A stretch of DNA of 64,000 bases from Gautieria morchelliformis (lineage: Eukaryota > Basidiomycota > Agaricomycetes > Gomphales > Gomphaceae): NCBI GenBank assembly GCA_015179125.1, contig WHVA01000005.1:186001-250000 (forward strand). Reading direction: 5' to 3'. Of this stretch, positions 2,493-62,010 are shown piece by piece. Every line of letters starts with the position of its first letter. Position 1 is the stretch's first letter. Below the pieces are notes generated by a model that saw only the letters and a list, made by a program, of their open reading frames with translations, did not search any database and had not been told where the DNA came from. The position numbers and the translations under genes were made by a program.

Positions 2493-2657
2493 TGTTGCTC
2501 GTGCGAGATCACGTGACACAGTCGCCCAATGTAGTAGTCTGAGTTCGAAGGGAACCTATCAACTTTCCCTTCGAACACAGGTGCGCAGTGCTAGGTCCTC
2601 ACCGGGTAGATAGTAATCTAATCAACTTTCCCTTCGAACTCAGTCCTGCACGCGACA
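2493..2657 (+). repeat. 3' LTR of copia-1 with internal 23-bp direct repeat
   Basis: A G-rich polypurine tract (2481-2492) directly follows pol, then the sequence opens with TGTTGCTCG and ends in GCGACA, giving a 165-bp TG...CA LTR. Host sequence resumes at 2658 and matches the R-gene copy at 40247 onward. Inside, a 23-bp direct repeat (2558-2580 and 2621-2643, one mismatch) flanks a 40-bp spacer that begins GTGCGC. The 5' LTR lies outside the window. Confidence 0.8.
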
Positions 2658-2658
2658 C

Positions 2659-3768
2659 TAGTCGCACGTGGGGCTGCCTCGCCACAATCTGCTGGTGCTA
2701 GTGGAACATTCTCTGTAACGCCCACATCTCCCCGTGCTCAGAGAGCTGCGCGACCGTCAACTTTGCGTGATTCCTCGAGGCGCGTGCAGCGCTGGAGTTC
2801 CGTGGACAAGGTGGCACTTAATGGAAACGGGAACAGTCCATCAAGGGATGATCCTGACGGACGGCGGCAGTCGCGTCATGCGGGGAGTGCGGAGAGCCCG
2901 CTGGGTGGCAGGGAAAGCCGTAGTGTTGTGGGCGAAGGGTTACGAGCTGCTGGACTCGCCCGTCGTGGCTCGGAAGATGTCTTCGCTGAAGGTGTTCCGC
3001 AACGCCGAGCACGGCTTAGCGTTGGATTGGGGAGCAGGCCTTCACTGAACGGCAGTGGGGATGGAGACCTGGACGAATTGAGGCGTGGGATTGCGCAAGT
3101 TGCGATTGGGCTTCCCGACGAAGAACAGGAGCCACGAACACCAACTTCTGCATCTGGCTCTGTGCGGTATGGGGCTGCACGTAATATTCACAGTGTTTTG
3201 TCTAGTGGTGCCTCACGGGCAGGCACATTGCTCGGGTCGTATGGTGCAGATGAGGAGGGACCTCGCATGACTCCGCTGCGGACGTATCGATCATCATATG
3301 AGCTACCAGAGAACGATGTCACGACACGCCCCACAACACCAGCGCTTGCATACCTCACCCTATGGCCGGGCCACGCAAACGCCATCTTCGGAGCATGCCC
3401 GGCTAATGTTCGACTCCCTCACCATGTTCGAGACGTAGCTAGCATGCATACCGACGTCCTCGTCCGCTCCGGACCTTAGTAACGCGCATCGCACACAGGG
3501 TAGTGCAGAGCGTGAACTGATGAGGGTGAGTGATGAGGTAGTGAGGAAGGTGACTGCGCTGCATAGGATGGACTCGCTGGACCTTGGTGGGGGAGGGGGT
3601 GGGAGTGGGCGGTCCAGTTTGGATGGGGGAGACAGATCTGTGAGGACGGTGAGGAGTGTGGATGTCCATGGGAGGCGTAGTACTGAGGGGTCGGTGTATC
3701 GCGAGGCCCGGCGGAGCTGGGAAGATACAGAGGTGTCGGCACGGCGGACGGCGGCGAGAGTAGACCTG
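2659..3768 (+). pseudogene. R-family gene, copy 1 (truncated, unknown function)
   Basis: Unrecognised Ser/Arg/Gly-rich protein gene present several times in this window. This copy lacks its 5' part, cut by the copia LTR, and its 3' part, joined to unrelated sequence near 3768. Shared blocks include DLDELRRGIAQV, SVRYGAARNIHSVLSSGASR and DEEGPRMTPLRTYRSSYELP in one frame (to a stop at 3477-3479). RRSTEGSVYREARRSWEDTE follows in another frame after a shift. No domain could be named. The frame breaks and truncation make it a non-functional fragment. Confidence 0.6.
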
Positions 3769-27247: not shown

Positions 27248-30200
27248 TGTCTTACACCATAGATCCCATACCAATGAGACTGAGAATCTATCAACAAAAC
27301 CTCAACAAGTCCAACCAAGCGCACTACGACCTTATCAACTCGGCCCTACACAGGGAATGGGACGTCATCTTATTGCAAGAACCCTACATCGACACCCTGG
27401 GCAATACAAGAGCAAATCATAACTGGCACGTGATCTATCCCACTTCTCACCTCGCTGATGTCTCCGCAAAAAGATCAGTGATTCTAGTCAATGCCAGCCT
27501 GGACACCAACTTGTGGTCACAGGTCTCTTTTGAAGGCACAAACGATGTTACCGTGATCCAGCTCCAACACCCACAAGGCAAAGTTACTATTTTCAATATA
27601 TATAACGACTGCGACCACTCCAACACCCTCAGGGCACTCGACCATTTCATCGACAGGGAGCGCCGCAACCTCATTTAGCAGGAAACCGACTCCATGCTAT
27701 GGTGTGGCGATTTCAACAGGCATCATGCTATGTGGCACGAAGAGCGTAACCATCATCTGTTCACGGCGGCGGCAACCAGGGAGGCCGAGGAACTCATATC
27801 GTTATTCGTGGACTACAATATGGTAATGACGCTACCGAAACGAACACCAACCCTACAATCAATGGCTACCAAGAATTGGACACGGGTAGATAACGTGTTC
27901 TGCACTGACAATGTGGCCGAAACAGTTATCACGTGCGACACTAGCCCCAGGCTATGGGGGATGGGCACGGATCACATGCCAGTCCTCACAGTACTCGACC
28001 TAGAGGCGACGCACAACCCACCGGCCCCATTCTGGAACTACAGAATGGTCGACTGGGAGCTGTTTAGGGAACAACTGGAGGAGCAGCTCGAGGAAGTGCC
28101 AGGACCTAAAGAGCTGGACACGCTAGCTGAGTTCAGCGAGGCTGTCAATGCACTGATGACTGCCATTCAGGAGACGATCAGCGAAGTAGTACCGCTCTCC
28201 AAGCCGGTGCCACACTCACGTCGATGGTGGAGTAGGGAGCTTACAACACTTAAGAAGGCTAAGAACAAAATCAACAATGAATCATATTGTTACTACGCGA
28301 TCACTGACCATCCCTCCCACCAGGAACATCGCGGGGTCAGTGTCGAATACGGCGAGGCGATAAAAAGAGCCAAGGCGCAGCATTGGGCCAACTACCTAGA
28401 GGACATTGATGATCACATGCTATGGTCGGCCAACAGATACCTGTCTAACCCTGCATCAGATGGCGGCAAGACCAGGATACCAACACTGAGAGGCCGCACC
28501 ACGGACGGGGAGGAGTGGTCGGCCGAGATGAACACGGACAAGAGCAAAGCTCCTGGCCGGCACCTTCTTTCCACCGAAGCCCCCTGAGACACAGGTCCCG
28601 TCGCACTTCCGCTATCCGAAAAGGATCACATGCAGCTTCCAGCTGCACAAGGACCAGATTAGGAGACAGATAGCCAGGCTTAAGCCCCACAAGGCACCGG
28701 GTGATGATGGCATTCCAAACATCATCTTGAAGGAGACGGTAGATCTGATCGCTGAGTACCTCCTTCATATCTTCCGCACCACTTTCACGTTGCAAACATA
28801 CAGCGATAACTGGAGGACGTGGGTCACGATTGTCCTCCAGAAACCAGGCAAGGCCAGCTATGAAGTGCCTAAAGCCTACCGGCCTATAGCGCTCCTCAAC
28901 ACCATCGGCAAACTATTGACAGCAATTGTGTCAGAGGACCTGGTGTACATGACAGAGAAATACCACCTTCTACCCACGAACCACTTTGGGGGGAGGCCTG
29001 GGCGCACCACGACAGACTCCCTGCACCTGGTAGTTAACAGAATCAAAGGGGCCTGGCAACGGAAGAAGGTGGCGGTAATGCTGTTCCTGGATATCGAGGG
29101 TGCCTTTCCAAACACGGTCACAGACCGGCTCCTGCATAACACGCATAAGTGGCGGGTCCCGGAAGAGTATGTGCTGTTTGTGGAAAGGATGCTAGCAAAC
29201 AGGCGCACGAAGCTACGATTCAACAACTACACATCTGATTGGGTGGCGATAGACAATGGCATAGGACAGGGGGACCCACTATCCATGATCCTTTACTTAT
29301 ACTATAACGCTGACCTGCTAGACATCCCAGACAGGAAAGGACAGGCCGTGGTCGCCTTTGTGGATGACACAAACTTGTACGCCAAAGGGGACACCTACGA
29401 GGAGGCTTACGACAGCCTCAGGGAGATGCTGTTGAAGCCAGGTGGCGCGAAGGAATGGACGATCACCCACAACTCCAGGTTCAAAAAGACGAAGTTTGCG
29501 GTGGTGTGTTTCTCGAGGAGGAGGGTGCCGGATCCAGCGCGTGCAGGTACTAACTTCCTCTACGATGACGTGGATATCGAGCCGGCCAAGGCCCACAAGT
29601 TCCTAGGCATGTTCCTGGACGAGGAGCTGCGATGGAACACACAAGCAGAGAAAGCCGTGGCAAAAGCTGCTAAGTGGACCTTGCTTTTTTGCAGATTGTC
29701 TAAACCGTTGACAGGTGTGCGTGCTGGCCTCATGAGACAGCTGTACCGAGCTGTAGCCATCCCCAAGTTCACGTACGCTGCAGATGTCTGGTTCACCCCG
29801 GTGAGGAGGCAGGAGGGAGGAAAAAATGCTAAGGGGTCGGTAGGTGTAGCGAAAAAACTAACCTCGGTACAGAGGATAGCAACCGTGGCTATTACTGGCG
29901 CGATGAGGACGACAGCAACGGACATCCTAGAGGCCCACACCAACATCATGCCCATCGAACTGCTGATGTGGGAAGTGTGTCATCGGGCGGCCCTCCGACT
30001 CATCACCCTACCAAAGGCCCACCCGCTACACCGGCCAGCGCGATCATGTGCTAGATGTCTAGTGAAAAGACACCCCTCCTCGCTGCACCAGCTTCTTCAT
30101 GCCTTCCACCTTACCCCCGACACCTATGAGAAAATCGTGCCGGCCCTGCAGCCGCCCGACACGGCCCAGCTCTTCACCACAGAGATAGCGCCCACCAGGG

Positions 30201-31186
30201 AGGAGTCCAAGGAGGACGACATGAACAACACCGCGGACGCCAAGGTCTATACAGATGGCTCTGGCCTGGAGCAAGGGGCAGGGGCCACAGCAGTCTTGTA
30301 CAAGGGAGGACAGAAGATCAAAGCGGTGAGGTATCACCTGGGCTCACTAGCTGACCATACCACATATGAGGCAGAGGTGATTGGCGTAGTATTAGCCCTC
30401 GAGCTCCTGTCAAGAGAGAAAGGGATCAAGGAGGCGATGATCCTGCTGGACAACCAGGCCATCATACAGTCCATCAGCCGCGTACGGTCCAGGCCAGCTC
30501 AGCACATCCTAGAACACGCCAACAACATGGCCAACAGGGTGGCTATGCCAACGCGGAGGCGCAGAGTCAAGCTCAAGGTCACATGGATCTCCGGACACGA
30601 TGATGTGGAAGGGAATGAAGCGGCGGATTCAGAAGCGAGGAGAGCAGCTAAAGGAGATAGCAGTCCACAGAGTGAGCTCCCTGCCTTCCTATCACCGGAG
30701 CTACTACCGCGCAGCATGGCTGCTGCATGTCAGTGCTTTCGCACAGAACAAAGACAGAAATGGCGGAGACAGTGGATGGTCTCGCCCCGTTTTGCCAGAC
30801 TGGAGAAGATAGACGAGAGCCTCCCCTCCAAGAGCTACTGCAAGATGACGTCTGACCTCACCCGGGCCCAAACCAGTCTGATCACGCAACTACGGACGGG
30901 CCACGCCCCCCTCAACAGCCATCTCCACAGAATCAAGAGGGCCACGTCGCCCCTATGCCCGGCGTTCTCATCAGCTGACGAAACAGTGCACCACTTCTTG
31001 TTCGACTGCCACACCTACGAGCACGCCAGACACAAACTTTGTCGAAAGATGGGATGCAGGTCCAAGTCGGCGAAGACACTTCTAGGGAGCACCAAGGGGA
31101 TGACAGCGCTCTTATTCTACGTGGCAGAGACAAAGCGATTAGAGGGCACTTTCGGTGATGTCACCCCCCGTTTACCTGCCAGATGA
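27247..31186 (+). pseudogene. LINE ORF2: AP-like endonuclease, RT, RNase H
   Basis: The start ATG overlaps the ORF1 stop. Endonuclease motifs: VILLQEPYID, LWCGDFNRHHAMWH, and MGTDHMPVL near 27960. RT: YRPIALLNTIGKLLTAIVSE, FGGRPGRTTTDS, FLDIEGAFPN, GIGQGDPLSMILY, and the active site VAFVDDTNLYAKG near 29350. RNase H domain: KVYTDGSGLEQGAGATAVLY near 30243, then LLDNQAIIQS and WISGHDDVEGNEAADSEARR. A cysteine/histidine end follows (ETVHHFLFDCHTYEHAR). Broken by TAG at 27676-27678 in the endonuclease and a frameshift near 28540-28550 between the endonuclease and RT. The encoded RNase H fits Tad1-clade LINEs of fungi. Confidence 0.92.
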
Positions 31187-39806: not shown

Positions 39807-42297
39807 ATGGACCCGGGCACACCATCGGGGCCTTCCTCGTGCGCATACCCCTGTGTTACAACGCAGCGAACCACGTCAGCGTCTAAGGTCTGCTCCCTCC
39901 TCACCTGCTAAACCCTAAGTTGGTCAGACACCAAACACTCCTCGCAAGCAAACGTCGATCACCTTCGCCGCGATCGGCTCAGGCAGACGGTCGAGTGTCG
40001 ATACAGCAGTCGGATCCTGAAGATGAGGCCTTGCCAGCACAGCCACAAAAGGCCCGCGGAAGTGGCAGTAAAAAAATCCAGAGCCCCAGGGCCTAGAGAA
40101 TGCTGTGGCCGCAGAAGCCTTGACGGCAGGGTGCGTCTAATACTTCCGTCAGTATCGCTGTATAGCTGACCGGGGTGCAGTCCGTCGGTGAGAGCTCCAG
40201 GTCGACGCAGCGCACGCAGGATCATGAGCGTACGATATCACAGGCGGTCCTAGTCGCACGTGGGGCTGCCTCGCCACAATCTGCTGGTGCTGGTGGAACT
40301 TTCTCTGTGACGCCCACATCTCCCCGTGCTCAGCGACCTGCGCGACCGTCAACGTTCTCAAGGCGCGTGCAGTGCTGGAGTTCCGTGGACGAGGTGGCAC
40401 TTAATGGAAACGGGAGCAGTCCATCGAGGGATGATCCTCGGACGGCGACAGTCGCGTCATGCAGGAAGTGCGGAGAGCCTGCTGGGTGGGAGGGAAGGTC
40501 GTAGTGTTGTGGGCGAAGGCTTACCGCTGGACTCCCCCGTCGTGGCTCGGAAGATGCTTCCCTGAAGGTGTTCCGCAACGCCGAACACGGCTTAGCGGTG
40601 GATTGGAGCCGGCCTTCACTGAACGGCAGTAGGGATGGAGACCTGGGCGAATTGAGGCGTGGGATTGCGCAAGTTGTGATTGGGCTTCCCGACGAGGAAC
40701 AGGATCCACGAACATCACCCTCTGCATCTGGCTCTGTGCGGTATGGGGCAGCACGTAATATTCACAGCGTTTTGTCTAGTGGTGCCTCACAGGCAGACAC
40801 ATCGCTCGGATCGTATGGTGCAGATGAGGAGGGACCTCGCATGACTCCGCTGCGAACGTATCGATCGTCATACGCGCTACCAGAGAGAACGATGTCACGG
40901 CACACCCCACAGCACGAACGCTCGCGTACCTCGCCCTATGGCCGGGCCCCGCAAACGCCATCTTCGGAACATGCCCGGCTAATGCTCGACTCCCTCACCA
41001 TGTTCGAGACGCAGCTAGCACGCATACCGACGTCCTCGTCCGCTCCGGACCTAACGCGCATCGCACACAGCGTAGTGCAGAGCGCGAACGGGCTGAATAC
41101 GTTGCTCCGTGCCGGAATGCGCATGCGCTCGAGGCGCAGATCGAGGCTGAGGTGGGGGATGCTGCGACGCATGTCGACGCTTCGGAGGTGTGGCTCCAGG
41201 TGGGGGGGGAGTATCGCGAAAGCGTGAGGGTGAGCGATGAGCTTGTGAGGACGGTGACTGCGCTTTTATTAGGTGTAGGAAGGCTTGTGAGGGAGGCGGT
41301 GAAAGAGCGTGGGAAGGACTCGCCGGACCTTGGTGGGGGAGGGGGGGGAAGTGGGCGGTCGAGTTTAGATGGGGAAGATAGACCTGCGAGGACAGGGAGG
41401 AGGAGTGCGAATGTCGATGGGAGGCGTAGCACTGAGGGGTCGGTGTATCGCGAGGCCCGGCGGAGCTGGGAAGATACAGAGGCGCCGGCACGGCGGATGG
41501 CGGCGAGAGTGGAGCCGAATAGTCGTCCTTCGACGTCTCAGAGCCTGACGTGTGACCGGGAGAGGGATGGAGGCCGGGGACTACCAAGGGAAGACGGCGA
41601 AGAAACAGCGCGCGAGAATGAACGTTCGTCAGCGTTGGACCGCGTATCTATTCGACGAATGTTCACCCCGCGCGTTGTAAAAGCTTCACCCGCATCGCAA
41701 GATTCTCCAGACCCGAACTATCCATCGCCGATCCCGGCCTCACGCACCTTCCTAGACCGTGACCGTGACCGTACCTCCGTAGACCGTGACCTTGATCTGC
41801 GCGATCGGCACCGCAACCTACCCCCCCTCACCGTCCCTCCGCCCCTTCCCTCGCTCCCCTCCGAGTCCTTAGATCGCAGAGGCTCCAACCGCCGACGCGG
41901 CAAATTCTCTAACACCTCTAACGCAACCGTACGCGGGACAGCGATCTTCCCTCCTGTTCCCTCGTCAGGGGCCACAACCGCGGTGTCCGCGCACACAGTG
42001 AGTGCGGCGGGGGAGGTTACGGCGTTTCCGTTAGTAAAGGGGGAGGCGTCACCAGGGAGTGCGCTAGTTGGGTTGCAAGAACAGCAGGAGAGGGACGTGC
42101 GGAAGCGGAGTCTGAGTATTACGGGTGAGTCTGGTGATGGGGACACAGCGAGGTTGCCGAATGTGCGGGTGCTAAGGAGTTCGAGGGTGAGGAATTCGCT
42201 TGATGGTGGAGCGGAGGAGGGGCAAGAGCATCCGCCGCCACCTGTGAATGGAGAGCGTCGGGAGAGGAGGAGGACTATAAATGATTTGCCGTCATAA
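39807..42297 (+). pseudogene. R-family gene, longest copy (copy 5)
   Basis: Unknown protein. The start region (39807) is frameshifted relative to the copy at 24826. Then SPRAQRPARPSTFSRRVQCW appears near 40328. From 40568 a long frame holds ELRRGIAQVVIGLPDEEQDP, VRYGAARNIHSVLSSGASQ and LMLDSLTMFETQLARIPTSS, plus a helical stretch (TRIAHSVVQSANGLNTLLRA). A shift near 41112 leads to ALEAQIEAEVGDAATHVDAS and a Gly-rich linker. Basic Ser-rich sequence and the C-terminus SLSITGESGDGDTARLPN follow, with TAA at 42295-42297. Predicted features are coiled coil, disordered Ser/Arg-rich tails and many possible phosphorylation sites. Frame shifts could be introns in part. Family not recognised. Confidence 0.55.
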
Positions 42298-44064: not shown

Positions 44065-44285
44065 TGTTAGTAATCGGGACGATGACACCGCCGAGGCAGA
44101 GCCGGCACGCATTTAGCCGGAGGTTCGAGATCGCTCTCGACCCCGGGTTGCTGGTGCACCGGCATCGCATCGGCACAGCAGCTCGAAGAGATTGGTAATA
44201 CAAACGGACATCATATTTTGTATATAAAGGAACGATCTACTTGAGATCATAGAATATCAGACTATTATATCTCCTTCGTTCCACA
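44065..44285 (+). repeat. 5' LTR of copia-2
   Basis: TGTTAGTAATC...GTTCCACA, 221 bp, with a TATATAAAGG promoter box near 44220 and a self-complementary GATCTACTTGAGATC just downstream. No internal exon duplication of the kind seen in copia-3. Confidence 0.95.
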
Positions 44286-44364
44286 GGTTATGGGCCCCGC
44301 GCATAACTAAACTACTACAAATCTAACTACGCTCTATACTCCAATAACTCAATACCGATCGACG

Positions 44365-47300
44365 ATGTCGAGTAGCAACAACACGTACAAGATCGACCCC
44401 TTGAACGGGGATAATTACGCGGCGTGGCGCCGGCGGCTCGAGTGGATACTCGATGACTTAGATCTGTGGGACGTGGCTATCGGCAGGGAGACGGAACCGA
44501 GACCGGCAGATGCCGACAACGTCACTGCGACCGAGCAGCAGGAGATCGACGATTGGAGAAGGAAGGACAAGAAAGCTAGAAAAGAGATTTGCCTCAGAGT
44601 TGCCGATGAACAACTAGTTTACATCAATCAGACGATGTCTGCATTTGCTGTATGGACTAGTTTACAAGCTATATTCGAATCTAAGGGAGCAGTGGGAATT
44701 GTAAATCTCCGAAGAGATTTCTTCCGGACGCTTGCCGAGGATGGCGCGAACATGGAGGAGCACGTACGCAAGCTCCGCGGCATTCAACAGGAATTGAATG
44801 CGCGGGGGCATTACATCAGTAACACCGAGTTCTCGAACACGTTGCTGACGTCATTACCAGATTCTTGGTCGGCGTTTATTACGGCAGTAAACGCCAGTGG
44901 AGCCGGGACAACAGCTGATATATTAATAGCTCGGGTCCTCGATGAGGATCGAGCACGGAAAGCTGGATCGGCACGGCAGACGGCGCTTAAGGCGCAACAA
45001 CGTCACAGGACCAGGAAAGATGACTCAGGAGCAACAAAGGGAAAGTGCCGAAATTGCGGCAAGAAGGGTCATTACGTGAAGGACTGTTGGGCGAAAGGTG
45101 GCGGCAAGGAGGGCCAAGCACCGAAATGGTTCAAATCAGGGAACAAAGAAACAGTCAAACAAGCAGAAGAAAAGGACTTCGCATTTGTATCTAAGGAGGT
45201 AGCATACAGTGCTATATCCGCATCCGACTGGTTAGCCGATTCAGCGGCAACAACACACATAGCTAGAAGCCGAAATGATTTCGCTAGCTATGCCGAGGAA
45301 CCATCTGAAATCGAAGGAATTTCACCTGATGCGGTACTACATACACAAGGCCGAGGCACGATCTACATGGAATTCAAGGTCGGCGCCAAGACGAACACGA
45401 TCGAGCTACGTGACGTCAAACACGCACCAGATGCGCCGAACAACCTTATCAGTGTAGGGCGGCTAACTGATAAGGGCAACACGGCCACATTTTCAGGCAC
45501 CGGCGTCGAATTCAAATCACGCGCCGGAGTTACCTTCGCACAGGGACAGAAGCGTGGGCGGCTATTCTGTATGAAGGCACGGGTCACTCGATCAGTCGAG
45601 GCACGGGACTTTGCCGCAGCGGCAAAGGGACGGTCATGGGACAAATGGCACAGGATACTAGGGCACGTCAATATAAACTCCATAAAGTTGTTGAAATCTA
45701 ACGATCTAGTCACCGGACTTGAGATCGACGAGTCAAACGAGCCGAGCCAGTGCAAGGCATGCATACAAGGCAAGCGGCATGTGGAGCCGTTCCCCAAAAG
45801 AGCCGAGGACACTGTAGAACAGGTCGGTGACCTGACAGTATCCGATGTATGGGGACCTGCCCAGACCGAGGGACCATCACGTGAAAAGTACTTTTATTCT
45901 TTCACGGACATCAAATCGAGGTACACCGTAATCTATTTTGGGAGCACCAAAGATGAAGCGCTCAAACACTTCGAGACGTACAAGGCATTCCTCGAGACCC
46001 AAACAGGTCAGAAACTGAAGAGGTTTCGCTCGGATAATGGAGGGGAATATGTCAATAAAAATTTCAAGGAATTTTGTGCAAAATATGGCATTATCATGGA
46101 GACCACAGCTCCATACTCCCCAGCCCAGAATGGAATTGCCGAACGACTCAACCGGACCTTACTCGAGCACGCACGGGCAATGATATTTGCCAAGAACCTG
46201 CCAAAAATACTCTGGCCCGAGGCCGTGGCTTACGCGTGTTATATCAAAAATCGATCACCCACGCGAGCGCTTGGAGATGACGCAACGCCGTTCCAAGCAC
46301 TATTCGGCAAGAAGCCGAACATAGCACGTCTAGAGGAATTCGGGACAAATTGCTGGGTTATGGTGCCGGATCAACGTCGAGCCAAACTTGATCCAAAGGC
46401 AGAAGAGCATATATTCGTCGGAGTAGCAGAACATGCAAAAGCCTGGAGGTATTACAATAAAGCCTCAAAACATGTTCAAATTTCAAGAAATATTACATTC
46501 GACGAAAACGACAACAAACTCTACCCTATCCCAGATAACGACGATGACGACACGGCACCGCTCGAGGGGGAGCACTCACCGCGCGAGCATGTGCCGGACC
46601 CGATCACATCTACCCCACAGACGTCATCACCCCAGACAACACCCGTTCCTGATCCACCTGAACAAGCGCCAGCTCCACAGATTCGACGGAGCACGCGTAT
46701 CACTCAAAGACCGGATTACCGGAAACTGAATAATTCAGGACGCACCGAGCAGGTTTACATAACGAGAGAAATCGTCACTGAACCTGAGAATTACAGAGCG
46801 GCGGTATCACGTGATGATGCGCCGATCTGGGAGAAAGCGATGGAAATTGAGATGGACCAACACAAGACGTTAGGAACATGGGAGCTAACAGAACTACCAC
46901 CCGGACGAGTAGCTATCGGTTGCCGATGGGTATACGCTGTCAAAACACAACCGGATGGACAATTCGATAAGGCTAAAGCAAGGGTTGTGGCTCAAGGATT
47001 CACACAGAGGCCAGGGATGGATTACTACGAGATAACCTCACCCGTGGTCAAATTCGATTCACTACGTGTTCTATTAGCGATCGCAAACACACTCGATTGG
47101 GAAATCGAAATGATGGATGTCAAAGGCGCCTACCTCAATTCAACCATAGATGAGGAGATCTACATGCGCCAGCCCGACGGATTTGACGATGGATCTGGAC
47201 GCGTTCTAAGAATATACAGAGCGCTCTACGGACTCAAGCAATCGGGGCGAGCTTGGCATCAGCGCTTACGCAAATTACTACTCGATCTCGGCTTCCATCA

Positions 47301-48387
47301 AAGTACAGCCGATGAATGTGTCTACATCAGACAAGATAAGGACTCAATCGAAGTCATATCAGTATATGTGGACGACTTTGGACTATTTGCTGACTCCAAA
47401 GGAGGGATGATTAAGCTCAAGGGGGAGCTTCATGGGAAATTCCCCTTAACAGATTTAGGAGAAATGAAGAAAATATTGGGAATTAGAGTTGAGAGGAATA
47501 GGGATGAGGGAACACTGATCATGTCACAAGGACATTACATCGACATCATACTCGATCGATTCAACATGACAACGGCTCATTCGGTATCTACACCTCTGCA
47601 TAAAATGATCAAACTCACGACACCCATGGACTCAACAGGTCCAACTGCCGAAGTACCCTATGCCAAGGCGATCGGATCACTCATGTATGCAGCACTCAGC
47701 ACGCGACCTGATTTGGCTTTTACCGTACAACACTTGAGCCAATTCACTACTACTTACGGAACCGAGCACTGGACGGCGATCAAGCACGCGCTCAGGTACC
47801 TCAAGGGGTCACGTGACGACGGCATAATCTTCCGACGAGACGCTGGTCTCGACCTCGAAATATTTGTCGACTCGGATTATGCTAATAGAAACGACGCACT
47901 ATCTATTAGTGGCTATGTAGCTATACTAGGAGGGGGAGCTATCGCATGGAGCTCGAAGAAGCAGCGAACGATCGCGCTATCTACCACGGAGGCCGAATAC
48001 ATGGCACTTACCGAGGGCGCCAAGCAATTAATCTGGCTGAGGCGTTTTATCGAGGAACTTGGAATCGATCAAACCCAGCCCACGTCACTTCGATCAGACA
48101 ATCTAGGCGCCATTACACTATCGCATGACGCAACGTATCATGCGCGTACCAAACACATCAATGTCGCATATCATTTCATCCGTGAGAAAGTGGTCTCTCA
48201 CGAGGCATCACTTACATACGTACCGACGAAGGAGAACGTAGCGGACATATTTACAAAGGGATTAGACATGCATCAACATAGGTATCTATTAGGGAAATTA
48301 GGATTTTGCCGAAGGGACTTCTCGCTGAGGGGGAGTGTTAGTAATCGGGACGATGACACCGCCGAGGCAGAGCCGGCACGCATTTAG
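44365..48387 (+). CDS. copia-2 Gag-Pol polyprotein
   Basis: 1340 residues in one frame. Gag N-terminus (NYAAWRRRLEWILDDLDLWD), zinc knuckle CRNCGKKGHYVKDC near residue 228, and protease with DSAATTH near 290 (the usual DSGA reads DSAA). GAG-pre-integrase (WHRILGHVN) precedes the integrase core: FTDIKSRYTVIYF near 512, SDNGGEY near 556, NGIAERLNRTL near 590. RT has active site VYVDDFGLF near 1000. RNase H follows (FVDSDYANRN near 1166, KHINVAYHFIREKV). The stop TAG at 48385 lies inside the 3' LTR, so the last residues are LTR-encoded. All catalytic blocks appear present. Start chosen as the first ATG after the primer site. Confidence 0.96.
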   Translation: MSSSNNTYKIDPLNGDNYAAWRRRLEWILDDLDLWDVAIGRETEPRPADADNVTATEQQEIDDWRRKDKKARKEICLRVADEQLVYINQTMSAFAVWTSLQAIFESKGAVGIVNLRRDFFRTLAEDGANMEEHVRKLRGIQQELNARGHYISNTEFSNTLLTSLPDSWSAFITAVNASGAGTTADILIARVLDEDRARKAGSARQTALKAQQRHRTRKDDSGATKGKCRNCGKKGHYVKDCWAKGGGKEGQAPKWFKSGNKETVKQAEEKDFAFVSKEVAYSAISASDWLADSAATTHIARSRNDFASYAEEPSEIEGISPDAVLHTQGRGTIYMEFKVGAKTNTIELRDVKHAPDAPNNLISVGRLTDKGNTATFSGTGVEFKSRAGVTFAQGQKRGRLFCMKARVTRSVEARDFAAAAKGRSWDKWHRILGHVNINSIKLLKSNDLVTGLEIDESNEPSQCKACIQGKRHVEPFPKRAEDTVEQVGDLTVSDVWGPAQTEGPSREKYFYSFTDIKSRYTVIYFGSTKDEALKHFETYKAFLETQTGQKLKRFRSDNGGEYVNKNFKEFCAKYGIIMETTAPYSPAQNGIAERLNRTLLEHARAMIFAKNLPKILWPEAVAYACYIKNRSPTRALGDDATPFQALFGKKPNIARLEEFGTNCWVMVPDQRRAKLDPKAEEHIFVGVAEHAKAWRYYNKASKHVQISRNITFDENDNKLYPIPDNDDDDTAPLEGEHSPREHVPDPITSTPQTSSPQTTPVPDPPEQAPAPQIRRSTRITQRPDYRKLNNSGRTEQVYITREIVTEPENYRAAVSRDDAPIWEKAMEIEMDQHKTLGTWELTELPPGRVAIGCRWVYAVKTQPDGQFDKAKARVVAQGFTQRPGMDYYEITSPVVKFDSLRVLLAIANTLDWEIEMMDVKGAYLNSTIDEEIYMRQPDGFDDGSGRVLRIYRALYGLKQSGRAWHQRLRKLLLDLGFHQSTADECVYIRQDKDSIEVISVYVDDFGLFADSKGGMIKLKGELHGKFPLTDLGEMKKILGIRVERNRDEGTLIMSQGHYIDIILDRFNMTTAHSVSTPLHKMIKLTTPMDSTGPTAEVPYAKAIGSLMYAALSTRPDLAFTVQHLSQFTTTYGTEHWTAIKHALRYLKGSRDDGIIFRRDAGLDLEIFVDSDYANRNDALSISGYVAILGGGAIAWSSKKQRTIALSTTEAEYMALTEGAKQLIWLRRFIEELGIDQTQPTSLRSDNLGAITLSHDATYHARTKHINVAYHFIREKVVSHEASLTYVPTKENVADIFTKGLDMHQHRYLLGKLGFCRRDFSLRGSVSNRDDDTAEAEPARI

Positions 48388-48556
48388 CCGGAGGTTCGAG
48401 ATCGCTCTCGACCCCGGGTTGCTGGTGCACCGGCATCGCATCGGCACAGCAGCTCGAAGAGATTGGTAATACAAACGGACATCATATTTTGTATATAAAG
48501 GAACGATCTACTTGAGATCATAGAATATCAGACTATTATATCTCCTTCGTTCCACA
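48336..48556 (+). repeat. 3' LTR of copia-2
   Basis: Identical by eye to the 5' LTR over 221 bp. Contains the last 17 codons of the polyprotein. Confidence 0.95.
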
Positions 48557-48561
48557 GGTTC

Positions 48562-54005: not shown

Positions 54006-54273
54006 TGTTGGAATATCGATGTCATACAATGATACGTGTCCACACACACCCACTGACGTGTCAGTACTTACTGTTCAAACCCCGCTTTGTCCCCTTTCCT
54101 CAGTCGTTCACGATCATCTGAACGTCTGAGGTAAGGACCATCTCATACTCCTGGGTTCTACTTCCTTTACTCACCCATCATCACCTGTACCCTAGCTCAC
54201 AGTAGTACAGGTCATAATATTAGTCGTTCACGATCATCTGAACGTCTGAGCTCACAGTAGTACAGACCCAACA
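54006..54273 (+). repeat. 5' LTR of copia-3 with intron plus spliced duplicate
   Basis: Begins TGTTGGAATA and ends CCCAACA (268 bp), followed directly by the primer site GGTTATGGGCC (54274). Internal structure: a 29-bp block (54102-54130), a 65-bp GTAAGG...CCCTAG segment (54131-54195), and a 15-bp block (54196-54210). A 13-bp spacer follows, then the same 29-bp block (54222-54250) joined directly to the same 15-bp block (54251-54265). Both repeated blocks are identical. Confidence 0.85.
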
Positions 54274-54393
54274 GGTTATGGGCCAACTGCTGCACTACTG
54301 ATCTATCTGTGTAGAAATCTTCGTGCAGAACCCTCGTTGTTCCTTCTCGCCTCCAGTACCTACACTCGTTCCCTCTTCCCCTGCCCGCGCAGT

Positions 54394-58148: not shown

Positions 58149-59330
58149 TCCGCCGTCGGAGAACTTGTTCTGCTCCCGATTCCCGAAACCCGCTGGGACA
58201 CCATTAGTGTCGACTTCATCGTTGAACTCCCAGAGTCTCATGGCTACGACACGATCATGAATGTTGTGGATTCGGTAAGCAAGGTGTCCCACTTCATTCT
58301 GACGCACACGACGATCACAGCCCTCGGAGCGGCCTGCCTGTTCCTTGCACATGTATGGAAGTTGCATGGGCTCCTGAAGCAAGTTGTTTCCGACCGAGGT
58401 CCACAATTTGTCGCGGAACTGACTTGGGAGCTCTACCGCCTGCTCGGCATAAAGCTGGCTACCACCACAGCATACCATCCGCAGGGTGACGGACAGACGG
58501 AACGGGTCAATCAGGAGTTGGAGCAATATCTCCGCCTCTTTGTCAATGAGAGGCAGGATGGCTGGGATGAGTTACTTCCACTGGCGGAATTCCAATACAA
58601 CAACCATGTACATTCCGCCACACAACAGACTCCCTTCATGCTTGACTCCGGATGACACCCGCGGATGGGCTTCGAACCACGCCAGGCTGACTCCCGACTT
58701 GAGACGGTCAATGAGTTCCGGGACCGCATGGACTGCACCCTTTCGGAAGCCAAGTCGGCCCTTGCGAAGGCCAAGGATGACATGGCAAGGTACTACAACC
58801 AACGCTGGGTTCCTGCCCCGGAGTACCAAGTTGGAGACAAGGTGTATCTAGATGCAAGTGACATCCGCACCACACGCCCTTCGCAGAAGCTTGCCCACCG
58901 CTACCTTGGGCCCTTCACAGTGACGCGGAGGGTTGGACGGAATGCATACCGCCTCCGACTTCCGATGTCCATGTCCCGCCTCCACCCCGTCTTCAATGTG
59001 GTGAAGTTACTCCCTATGCTTGAGGACCCAATTCCAGGTCGGAAGGCTCGTCCGCCACCTCCGCCGGAAATTGTAGATGGGGAAGAGCACTATGTGGTGG
59101 AACGGATCCTGGACAGCCGGTTTGTGCGAGGACGACTCCAATTCCTCGTGAAATGGGAAGGGTATGGGTATGAGGAGAATTCGTGGGTCCTGGAGCAAGA
59201 CGTTTCCACTCCAGACAAACTCCGTGAGTTCTATAGGACACACCCCGGTGCCCCTCGCCGAATCCGCTCGCTGGCCTTTCAATCCCTCGTGTCCCGTGCT
59301 TCGAGGACGCAGCACGCTAGAGGGGGGTGA
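58149..59330 (+). pseudogene. Ty3/gypsy integrase and chromodomain fused to copia RT (gypsy-2)
   Basis: From GELVLLPIPETRWDTISVDF the frame is gypsy integrase, in frame with the upstream copia RT. Catalytic blocks: SVDFIVELPES, VSDRGPQFVAE and GDGQTERVNQELEQYL, so all three acidic residues are retained. TGA at 58653-58655 replaces the Arg of the family motif GRHPRMGFEPRQ. Then come KVYLDASDIRTTRPSQKL, LRLPMSMSRLHPVF and a chromodomain (VVERILDSR, LQFLVKWEGYGYEENSW). The stop at 59328-59330 abuts the LTR. Gag, protease, RT and RNase H of this element are missing. Confidence 0.92.
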
Positions 59331-59819
59331 TGTCAGGGGACACCCTGTTTTCCATTTCCAGTTCCGACACCACACCCAGTTCCGACTCCATTTCCGACTC
59401 CGCTTCCGGTTCCAATTCCATCTCGGCCTCCGCTTTCGGAAACGATTCCGCTTCTGGGAGAACTTCCTCCAGTTCTGTTCGCCTTGCCACTTCCACTCCA
59501 ATTTCCGACTTCCGCTCTCGGAACAGTGTCGGAAATCAAACGACTCGCGTAATAGGTGGCATCAAGGGTCGATCAAGGGTCAGGGTGGTCAGGGAGATGC
59601 AGGGTTGATGGCGGGTGCCAAGTGTTGTCCCTGGCTGCGCAACGTAGTATAATACCGGCTCGCTGACATTGGGGGTCCTTAGACTTTTCTCTTTGGATTT
59701 CCCCTTGTCAGGTGAGAATCCCCTCTCTTGTATACTCTGTTCATTTATACATGCTTTGGATTTCCCCTTGTCAGTTGTGTGGTAGTGTGATCTCCACAAC
59801 CAGCCAGGGTTGCCCTTAC
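59331..59819 (+). repeat. 3' LTR of gypsy-2
   Basis: 489 bp, TGTCAGGGGACACC...GCCCTTACA, after a purine tract AGAGGGGGGTGA (59319-59330). A 21-bp repeat CTTTGGATTTCCCCTTGTCAG (59691-59711 and 59753-59773) flanks a spacer of about 41 bp starting GTGAGA. A solo copy of the same LTR is at 61278-61767, which confirms both ends. Confidence 0.92.
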
Positions 59820-60037
59820 ACCATTGTTCCCTAGAGTATAAAGCAGCTAGCTATTACATTTTCTTCCCTCAGTCATTTGCAACACGAAGCGAACACTGAG
59901 GTAAGGAACATTCCAAGTCTCGAGTTATTTCTTTACTTATCTATGTGTTGTAGTATTCTTCATATAGGTAATAAAAATAGTTGTTTGCAACACAAAGAGA
60001 ACACTGAGTATTCTTCATATAGCTATAATTATTCTTA
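59820..60037 (+). repeat. Partial copia-type LTR with intron plus spliced duplicate
   Basis: TATAAAG box at 59837-59843. About 30 bp downstream begins the block AGTCATTTGC...ACACTGAG (59871-59900). A 53-bp GTAAGG...TTGTAG segment (59901-59953), TATTCTTCATATAG (59954-59967) and a 13-bp spacer GTAATAAAAATAG follow. Then comes a diverged copy of the first block (59981-60008) joined directly to TATTCTTCATATAG (60009-60022). The layout equals that of the copia-3 LTR although the sequence differs. The 5' part is cut off by gypsy-2. Confidence 0.7.
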
Positions 60038-61199: not shown

Positions 61200-62010
61200 C
61201 TCCCATGTCTGCATGTCCCCCCCCTACCTCACATGTAGCGTGTCACATGTGGCATGTCCCCACTCATAGTGTGTCCCTGTCAGGGGACACCCTGTTTTCC
61301 ATTTCCAGTTCCGACACCACACCCAGTTCCGACTCCATTTCCGACTCCGGTTCTGGTTCCGATTCCATCTCTGCCTCCACTTTCGGAAATGATTCCGCTT
61401 CTGGGAGAACTTCTACCAGTTCTGTTCGCTTTGCCAGTTCCACTCCAATTTCCGACTTCCGCTCACGGAACAGTGTCAGAAATCAAGTGACTCACATAAT
61501 GGGTGGCATCAAGGGTCGATCAAGGGTCAGGGAGGTCAGGGGGATGCAGGGTTGATGGCGGGTGCCAAGTGTTGTCACTGGCTGCGCAGCGCAGTATAAT
61601 ACGGGCTCGCTGACATTGGGGGTCCTTAGACTTTTCTCTTTGGATTTGTCCTTGTCAGGTGAGAATCCCCTCTCTTGTATACTCTGTTCATTTATACATA
61701 CTTTGGATTTCCCCTTGTCAGTTGTGTGGTAGTGAGATCTCCACAACCAGCCAGGGTTTCCCTTACAGTCCCCAAGTATAGTGTGCATAGAATGTCCCTT
61801 GTTTGTAATGTGTCCCTTGTTTGCGGTGTGTCTGCCAAGTATAGCTTGTCCCCCATGTGTAGCATGGCGCTGTGAATAGCATGCATCCCCCAAGTGCATG
61901 TCCCCCAAGTGTAGTGTGTCCCCACATGTAGCATGTCCCCAAGTATAGCGTGCATAGTGTGTCCCCATGCATAGCATATCCCCTGTGCATAGCATGTCCC
62001 CCATGTGCTC
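61200..62010. repeat. Minisatellite of GTAGCGTGTCCCC-type units
   Basis: Imperfect 12-24 bp units (CATGTAGCATGTCCCC, AAGTGTAGTGTGTCCCC) run at 61205-61277 and 61768-62010. The array is split by a solo LTR inserted with a 5-bp duplication. Unit order is irregular and no reading frame is conserved. Confidence 0.75.
61273..61772 (+). mobile_element. Solo LTR of gypsy-2 family with target duplication
   Basis: LTR 61278-61767 (490 bp) flanked by GTCCC (61273-61277 and 61768-61772). Closely matches 59331-59819, including the duplicated TTTGGATTT..CCTTGTCAG block. It sits inside the minisatellite, so the array predates this insertion. Confidence 0.92.

Follow-up and report, generated by a model that had tools for sequence, protein, structure and literature searches.

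Why would the terminal repeat of a retrotransposon carry a segment interrupted by an intron-like sequence and, a few nucleotides further on, what looks like the spliced version of that same segment? The question is raised by the 5' long terminal repeat (LTR) of an element we call copia-3, on the plus strand at 54006-54273 (TGTTGG..CCAACA) of a 64,000-nucleotide (nt) stretch of the Gautieria morchelliformis genome (contig WHVA01000005.1, positions 186,001 to 250,000; hereafter the window). The repeat region (R) of this LTR opens with a first exon, A1 (54102-54130), at whose first base transcription presumably starts. It is followed by a 65-nt intron, intron 1 (54131-54195, GTAAGG..CCCTAG), a microexon of 15 nt, B1 (54196-54210), and an 11-nt spacer, x (54211-54221), whose initial GT would be the donor of a second intron and whose last base is a variable junction considered below. 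Then come A2 and B2 (54222-54265), a spliced copy of A1 and B1 that we propose as the docking site of strong-stop DNA and, together with x, as intron 2; a short unique 5' region (U5, 54266-54273); and, directly 3' of the LTR, a sequence resembling a primer binding site (PBS), GGTTATGGGCC (54274-54284).

A1 and A2 (54222-54250) are identical at 29/29 positions, B1 and B2 (54251-54265) at 15/15, and A2 and B2 abut. Re-reading the coordinates confirmed what a first, sequence-only reading of this locus had claimed, namely that a 29-bp and a 15-bp block are each duplicated without a difference, that a gap of 65 bp occurs only in the first copy, and that the two copies differ by the exact excision of a GT...AG segment. 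Signals mark the limits of the duplication: it begins on the left with the first base of A1, lacks a GT..AG stretch in its middle, and loses homology on the right at the point where GT comes after B1 but U5 after B2. With the spacer, on which that first reading was silent, A2 and B2 likewise form a GT..AG stretch, of 55 nt, given that x begins with GT and B finishes in AG.

Judging from the sequences, we consider it probable that LTR retrotransposons of this kind carry one or two short spliceosomal introns in R together with a second copy of R that is the spliced product, and that strong-stop DNA docks on this second copy and so rewrites it. Transcription would start at A1, and the 5' leader would be spliced to cap-A1-U5 in the one-intron elements described below (gypsy-2 and copia-1) and to cap-A1-B1-U5 in the copia-3 type, which would have two introns, the second being x-A2-B2. 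Reverse transcriptase would copy the spliced leader into minus-strand strong-stop DNA, which at the first strand transfer would dock on the contiguous A2(B2) of the 3' LTR rather than on A1, where the intron interrupts the match. Extension through x, B1, the intron and A1 into the unique 3' region (U3) would yield a new LTR that again reads A1-intron-(B1)-x-A2(B2)-U5, with the intron kept and A2(B2) rewritten from spliced RNA. Splicing, start site and docking are steps that we infer; docking on A2 and the second intron, unproven as they are, appear the most economical. Four patterns legible in the sequences bear on the proposal: co-variation of the two copies, their equality at insertion, tracking of a shifted splice site, and a variable base at the proposed junction.

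How widespread is the layout? In the whole genome (122 Mb in 1113 contigs), two DNA searches with copia-3 gave 43 and 41 matches (40 candidates being scored in each), and the relaxed pattern CCTCAGTCN{17,29}CTGAGGTAAG gave 60+55 = 115 matches, against 0+0 for a control pattern. We retrieved 88 of 100 listed sites among these 115 and added loci from the two initial searches. Not every member shares the layout, a point that the sequence-only reading had left to a family-wide search: the second copy is kept in 89 of 108 parsed sites in which A is followed by GTRA, and absent from 19, which are interrupted, truncated or of the form A-intron-B-U5 (L020, L098, L116, L145 and L149). That reading had also held that relatives whose extra segment lacks GT/AG ends would speak against splicing; among the 89 copies with a second copy, intron 1 terminates in AG in 86, the donor GT having been part of the search pattern and not counting as evidence. 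The spacer begins with GT in 79/89 copies and B finishes in AG in 79/89. After leaving out three misparsed or broken loci (L121, L022 and L018), which also entered neither the co-variation nor the motif counts of the copia-3 type, the remaining 86 copies fell into 26 clusters by similarity of U3 and intron, of which 13 hold just one copy. Block sequences vary from cluster to cluster, yet within a copy A1 matches A2 and B1 matches B2. Intron 1 measures 50-73 nt as parsed. A branch-like CTNAY lies 8-35 nt before the acceptor in 80/86 introns (200 shuffles: mean 34, maximum 47) and in 59/78 proposed introns 2 (mean 21, maximum 30), the copies being related and not independent in both counts. GT..AG ends, short fungal length and a branch motif, the hallmarks of spliceosomal introns, can thus all be found in the sequence. 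The window itself holds a second two-intron copia LTR on the plus strand (59871-60022), with A1 at 59871-59900, the intron at 59901-59953, B1 at 59954-59967, x at 59968-59978, A2 at 59979-60008 and B2 at 60009-60022.

Simpler versions of the layout turn up in other elements. When the window was scanned for direct repeats (score 14 or more, spacing 38-170 nt), first-copy homology stopped exactly at AG/GT in 5 of 12 repeats on the plus strand and in 0/12 on the minus strand. The five fall in three LTRs (54102 and 54194; 59876 and 59952; 59691), and a sixth repeat, in the copia-1 LTR at 2558, stops at AG/GT with one mismatch. The gypsy-2 LTR (59331-59820, plus strand) has A1 at 59691-59711 and a 63-nt intron at 59712-59774 whose final 21 nt (59754-59774) are the exon copy, A2, giving the order CTTTGGATTTCCCCTTGTCAG/GTGAGA.../CTTTGGATTTCCCCTTGTCAG/TTGTG. 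A second gypsy-2 LTR (61278-61767, plus strand) is laid out alike (A1 61638-61658, A2 61701-61721), and the exact gypsy-2 string of exon plus donor has 1848 matches genome-wide. In the copia-1 3' LTR (2493-2657, plus strand), A1 (2558-2580) precedes an intron (2581-2643) that ends in A2 (2621-2643), followed by U5 (2644-2657); 20 fetched copia-1 relatives have the same one-intron layout. An intron wholly within the LTR is hence found in three lineages, the copia-3 type, gypsy-2 and copia-1. The layout is not universal, however, as window repeat comparison found no such repeat in the LTRs of copia-2 (44065-44289/48336-48560) or gypsy-1 (5013-5700/12358-13037). Compared with what had first been read at 54102-54265, the layout proves to be shared by many families, with a second copy that is seemingly renewed repeatedly, a possible second intron, and one-intron versions in gypsy as well as copia elements.

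Two kinds of inverted repeat accompany these LTRs. Block A forms one (CTCAG..GTTCA/TGAAC..CTGAG at 54099-54130 and in relatives, GTTTG/CAAAC in other clusters); in copia-1 (2538-2580) A1 lies downstream of its 5' arm. The other surrounds the acceptor in several copies, with one arm at the end of intron 1 and the second made up of the end of B1 and the start of x (54183-54214 and relatives; ACCTGTACTAC/GTAGTACAGGT in L007).

Do the two copies evolve together? In copia-1, A1 and A2 of the same copy differ at 12/483 positions, compared with a mean of 37.8 once A2 has been reassigned at random across copies (0/10000 shuffles as low); across the 86 copies of the copia-3 type there are 148 mismatches versus 723 when shuffled (0/5000 as low). 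Ten LTR pairs lying 4.7-6.0 kb apart on one strand allow the state at insertion to be reconstructed. A PBS follows exactly one LTR in 10/10, and 5-bp target duplications were read in the six pairs examined for them, as well as in the C404 and copia-1 elements. Differences between A1 and A2 are private to one LTR in 18/20 cases, and in 9/10 elements no such difference is common to both LTRs, so that A1 and A2 should have been equal at insertion. In two LTRs (L013 and L014) nature has done the experiment: the intron end has changed from TACAG to TAGAG, which creates an AG 2 nt further upstream, and the second copy in each reads CTGAG-AG-CTCACAG. In the genome-wide patterns and loci, 2 shifted introns go with shifted copies and 8 unshifted introns with unshifted copies, with 0/10 readable LTRs discordant; 12 intron ends were found, those on C748 and C1046 being without a readable second copy and outside the 10. 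The additional AG at the junction recurs in three short LTRs (L156, L157 and L158), the loci involved (L013, L014, L156-L159) lying on C984, C404 and C565. A second copy that follows a moved acceptor argues against copying at the DNA level, which would be blind to such a move. Co-variation, equality at insertion and splice-shift copies appear hard to explain other than by origin from spliced RNA, and lend support to the sequence-only proposal that splicing and template switching built the second copy. That this copy derives from spliced RNA is, we believe, very likely; that it has been renewed repeatedly is likely.

If strong-stop DNA is joined at A2, its 3' end should have left scars in the bases just 5' of A2. 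The most variable column of the copia-1 LTR is the one preceding A2 (A12 T4 C3 G1, L164 left out), and the same holds in a gypsy-2 sample picked for similarity to the window copy; in 67 gypsy-2 copies combined, positions -1, -2 and -3 rank 3, 4 and 7 among 138 columns (L196, L199, L214 and L036, a second entry of the window copy, left out of the column counts). The base before A1 is T in 67/67 of the gypsy-2 copies. Among non-CpG columns of nine copia-3-type clusters, the junction ranks 6/229, 6/217, 5/232, 7/236, 5/225 (24 tied), 10/217, 1/232 and 21/234 (29 tied), and is invariant in the ninth. The junction base is equal in both LTRs in 10/10 elements, though it varies among elements (C 5, T 5), and a pattern with the spacer one base too short recovered only 4 copies whose junction is one base shorter.

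Variable bases at the end of x would also be expected if, in each cycle, microhomology served to join spliced strong-stop DNA to an RNA 3' end lying in x, adding A2(B2) afresh without docking on an older A2. One copia-1 LTR, L164, speaks for such end-joining: its copy extends further left, starting further upstream, and its spacer is changed, an arrangement that also fits the docking model if transcription began upstream. Yet x is nearly constant in length within families, and a match of 21-44 nt on A2(B2) would go unused, which leaves end-joining an unlikely route. Two aberrant LTRs fit docking of unspliced DNA on A2, namely the expanded L121/L154 (C737:223400-223956), which reads (A-intron-B-x)2-A-B, and the gypsy-2 copy L199 (C49:11822-11964), in which the intron follows the second exon copy once more.

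For the copia-3 type, the two introns might be replaced by a single one of 120 nt that uses the donor behind A1 and the AG closing A2. A2 does end in AG, and the product, A-B, would equal the sequence of short LTRs. Such an intron would renew A2 and not B2, however, and B1 and B2 co-vary; we rank it below two introns because B, too, co-varies, which implies that B is also taken from the 5' copy, as works if x-A2-B2 is a second intron. GAG is, moreover, a poor splice acceptor, and a 120-nt intron has no bearing on the one-intron families. It strikes us as improbable.

Could the LTR simply be conventional, with transcription starting at A2, R consisting of A2(B2), and A1-intron-B1-x surviving within U3 as the relic of one old event? 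The variable base before A2 lies where an ordinary U3/R border would fall. Such a start leaves unexplained, though, why A1 equals A2 and B1 equals B2 in 26 clusters and at insertion, and why the second copy tracks a splice shift. Promoter signals point elsewhere as well: TATAA is present in 26/86 copies, and 21/27 occurrences lie 32-34 nt before A1, which favours a start at A1. We regard a start at A2 as quite improbable.

A chance indel between simple repeats, or repeat turnover at the DNA level alone, can make short and A-intron-B LTRs through deletion between the two A or the two B blocks, but has next to no chance of being the sole cause, which the data already contradict, since it can neither produce, in dozens of clusters, a second copy minus exactly the GT..AG segment nor follow a shifted acceptor. 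The short LTRs themselves are ambiguous. The exact spliced short string of gypsy-2 has 193 matches genome-wide, and short LTRs fit transfer to A1 and, equally, deletion between repeats. We had considered short A-B LTRs as proof of splicing and dropped the idea, as deletion between A1 and A2 gives an identical sequence. An A-B-x-A-B LTR, in which intron 1 is gone and the spacer kept, is a form that only splicing would make; none was noticed in the loci read, and no genome-wide search for it was made.

A number of observations weigh against spliced-leader docking as proposed here. When gypsy-2 copies were sampled in contig order, position -1 hardly varied (A33, T1), variation being confined to -2 (T26, G8), which weakens the result from the sample picked for similarity. 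The mismatches between B1 and B2 (27 versus 478 shuffled) are biased, since similarity to B1 is what defined the limits of B2. No TATAA occurs within 80 nt of A1 in 60/86 copies. Short A-B and A-intron-B LTRs are common, and deletion between repeats could yield them; the gypsy-2 short forms show no transfer scar, having T before A in all among the matches listed. The C404 element combines a short 5' LTR (L156) with a long 3' LTR (L159) between CGGCG duplications, an outcome that the model does not give directly and that needs slippage during or after reverse transcription. Finally, all counts come from one genome.

The window copy of copia-3 has no 3' LTR within these 64 kb. Near 58158 its pol joins a gypsy integrase fragment that runs up to the gypsy-2 LTR (58159-59330), a chimeric join; the copy is broken, yet domain scanning found Pol_BBD, gag_pre-integrs, rve and RVT_2. 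Only rve was matched in the gypsy-2 fragment next to the LTR (protein 9; the scan left out the frame 58656-59330). Of the elements without the layout, gypsy-1 has RVT_1, integrase and chromodomain, and copia-2 has gag, integrase and RVT_2 in copia order in a single frame. Copia-2 (44065-48560) is a plain LTR element; its two 225-bp LTRs are identical, it has a single long open frame of 1358 codons, and many of the named relatives of its pol come from Agaricomycetes. Elsewhere in the window, stretches apart from LTR elements are repeated at 82-91% identity (17.9-23.3 kb versus 40.8-53.7 kb; 2658-3517 versus 40250-41089), and an open frame at 28532-31186 is non-LTR-like: the domain scan matched RVT_1 and RNase_H in it but no integrase.

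How do these elements compare with known systems? They resemble Ty1/copia and Ty3/gypsy in their LTR pair, PBS and 5-bp target duplications, and in domain order (gag-integrase-reverse transcriptase in copia, reverse transcriptase-RNase H-integrase-chromodomain in gypsy, as seen in gypsy-1), and differ from them in that the LTR itself contains an intron and a spliced copy of R. In the plant elements Ogre and EVADE and in Cer1 of C. elegans the introns are in the internal region, outside the LTR, unlike the introns here, which lie wholly within it. Human T-cell leukaemia virus type 1 (HTLV-1) and foamy viruses likewise have a splice donor in R, but their acceptor lies outside the LTR, where here it lies inside, and their genomic RNA is unspliced. 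Ty1 reportedly has untidy ends (Mules et al. 1998). In human immunodeficiency virus type 1 (HIV-1), the number of 5' G residues affects strand transfer (PMC4668388). As in these two cases, our variable base would reflect 3'-end heterogeneity of strong-stop DNA; here, though, it precedes the spliced second copy, not A1.

Excerpts of PMC12786077 describe Ogre, EVADE and Cer1 as LTR elements with spliced RNA, in which splicing serves subgenomic RNAs or export proteins; Ogre and EVADE are exceptions among plant LTR elements, which generally lack introns, and the loss on transposition of an intron put into Ty is given there as the classic proof of an RNA intermediate. Yarrowia Tyl6 was considered as a precedent and set aside, an LTR intron not being mentioned in the excerpted text of PMC5014426. 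The main text of PMC3248453 contains 0 occurrences of 'intron' and 'splic'; the comparison also used parts of PMC5542766 and PMC4974528. Among the open-access PubMed Central articles listed by full-text searches, none, judging by title and abstract opening, reports an LTR that keeps an intron in R or carries a spliced copy of R; most subscription journals lay outside the search, so a prior description is possible.

We lean towards the view that this is a general device, in which both copia- and gypsy-type LTR retrotransposons keep introns in R and the spliceosome would, cycle after cycle, in effect write a portion of the LTR. The spliced R copy would double as the 3' terminus of the last intron and as the landing pad for the first transfer, so that layout, intron and exon copies would be self-perpetuating and would evolve together. 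Passage through RNA is expected to strip an element of its introns; here they seem to persist for many cycles, in both big LTR superfamilies and within the LTR's most critical portion, which raises the question of what benefit a spliced 5' leader brings to the element. By writing the outcome of splicing, the start site and the end of transfer into DNA, the layout would make all three readable from genome sequence alone.
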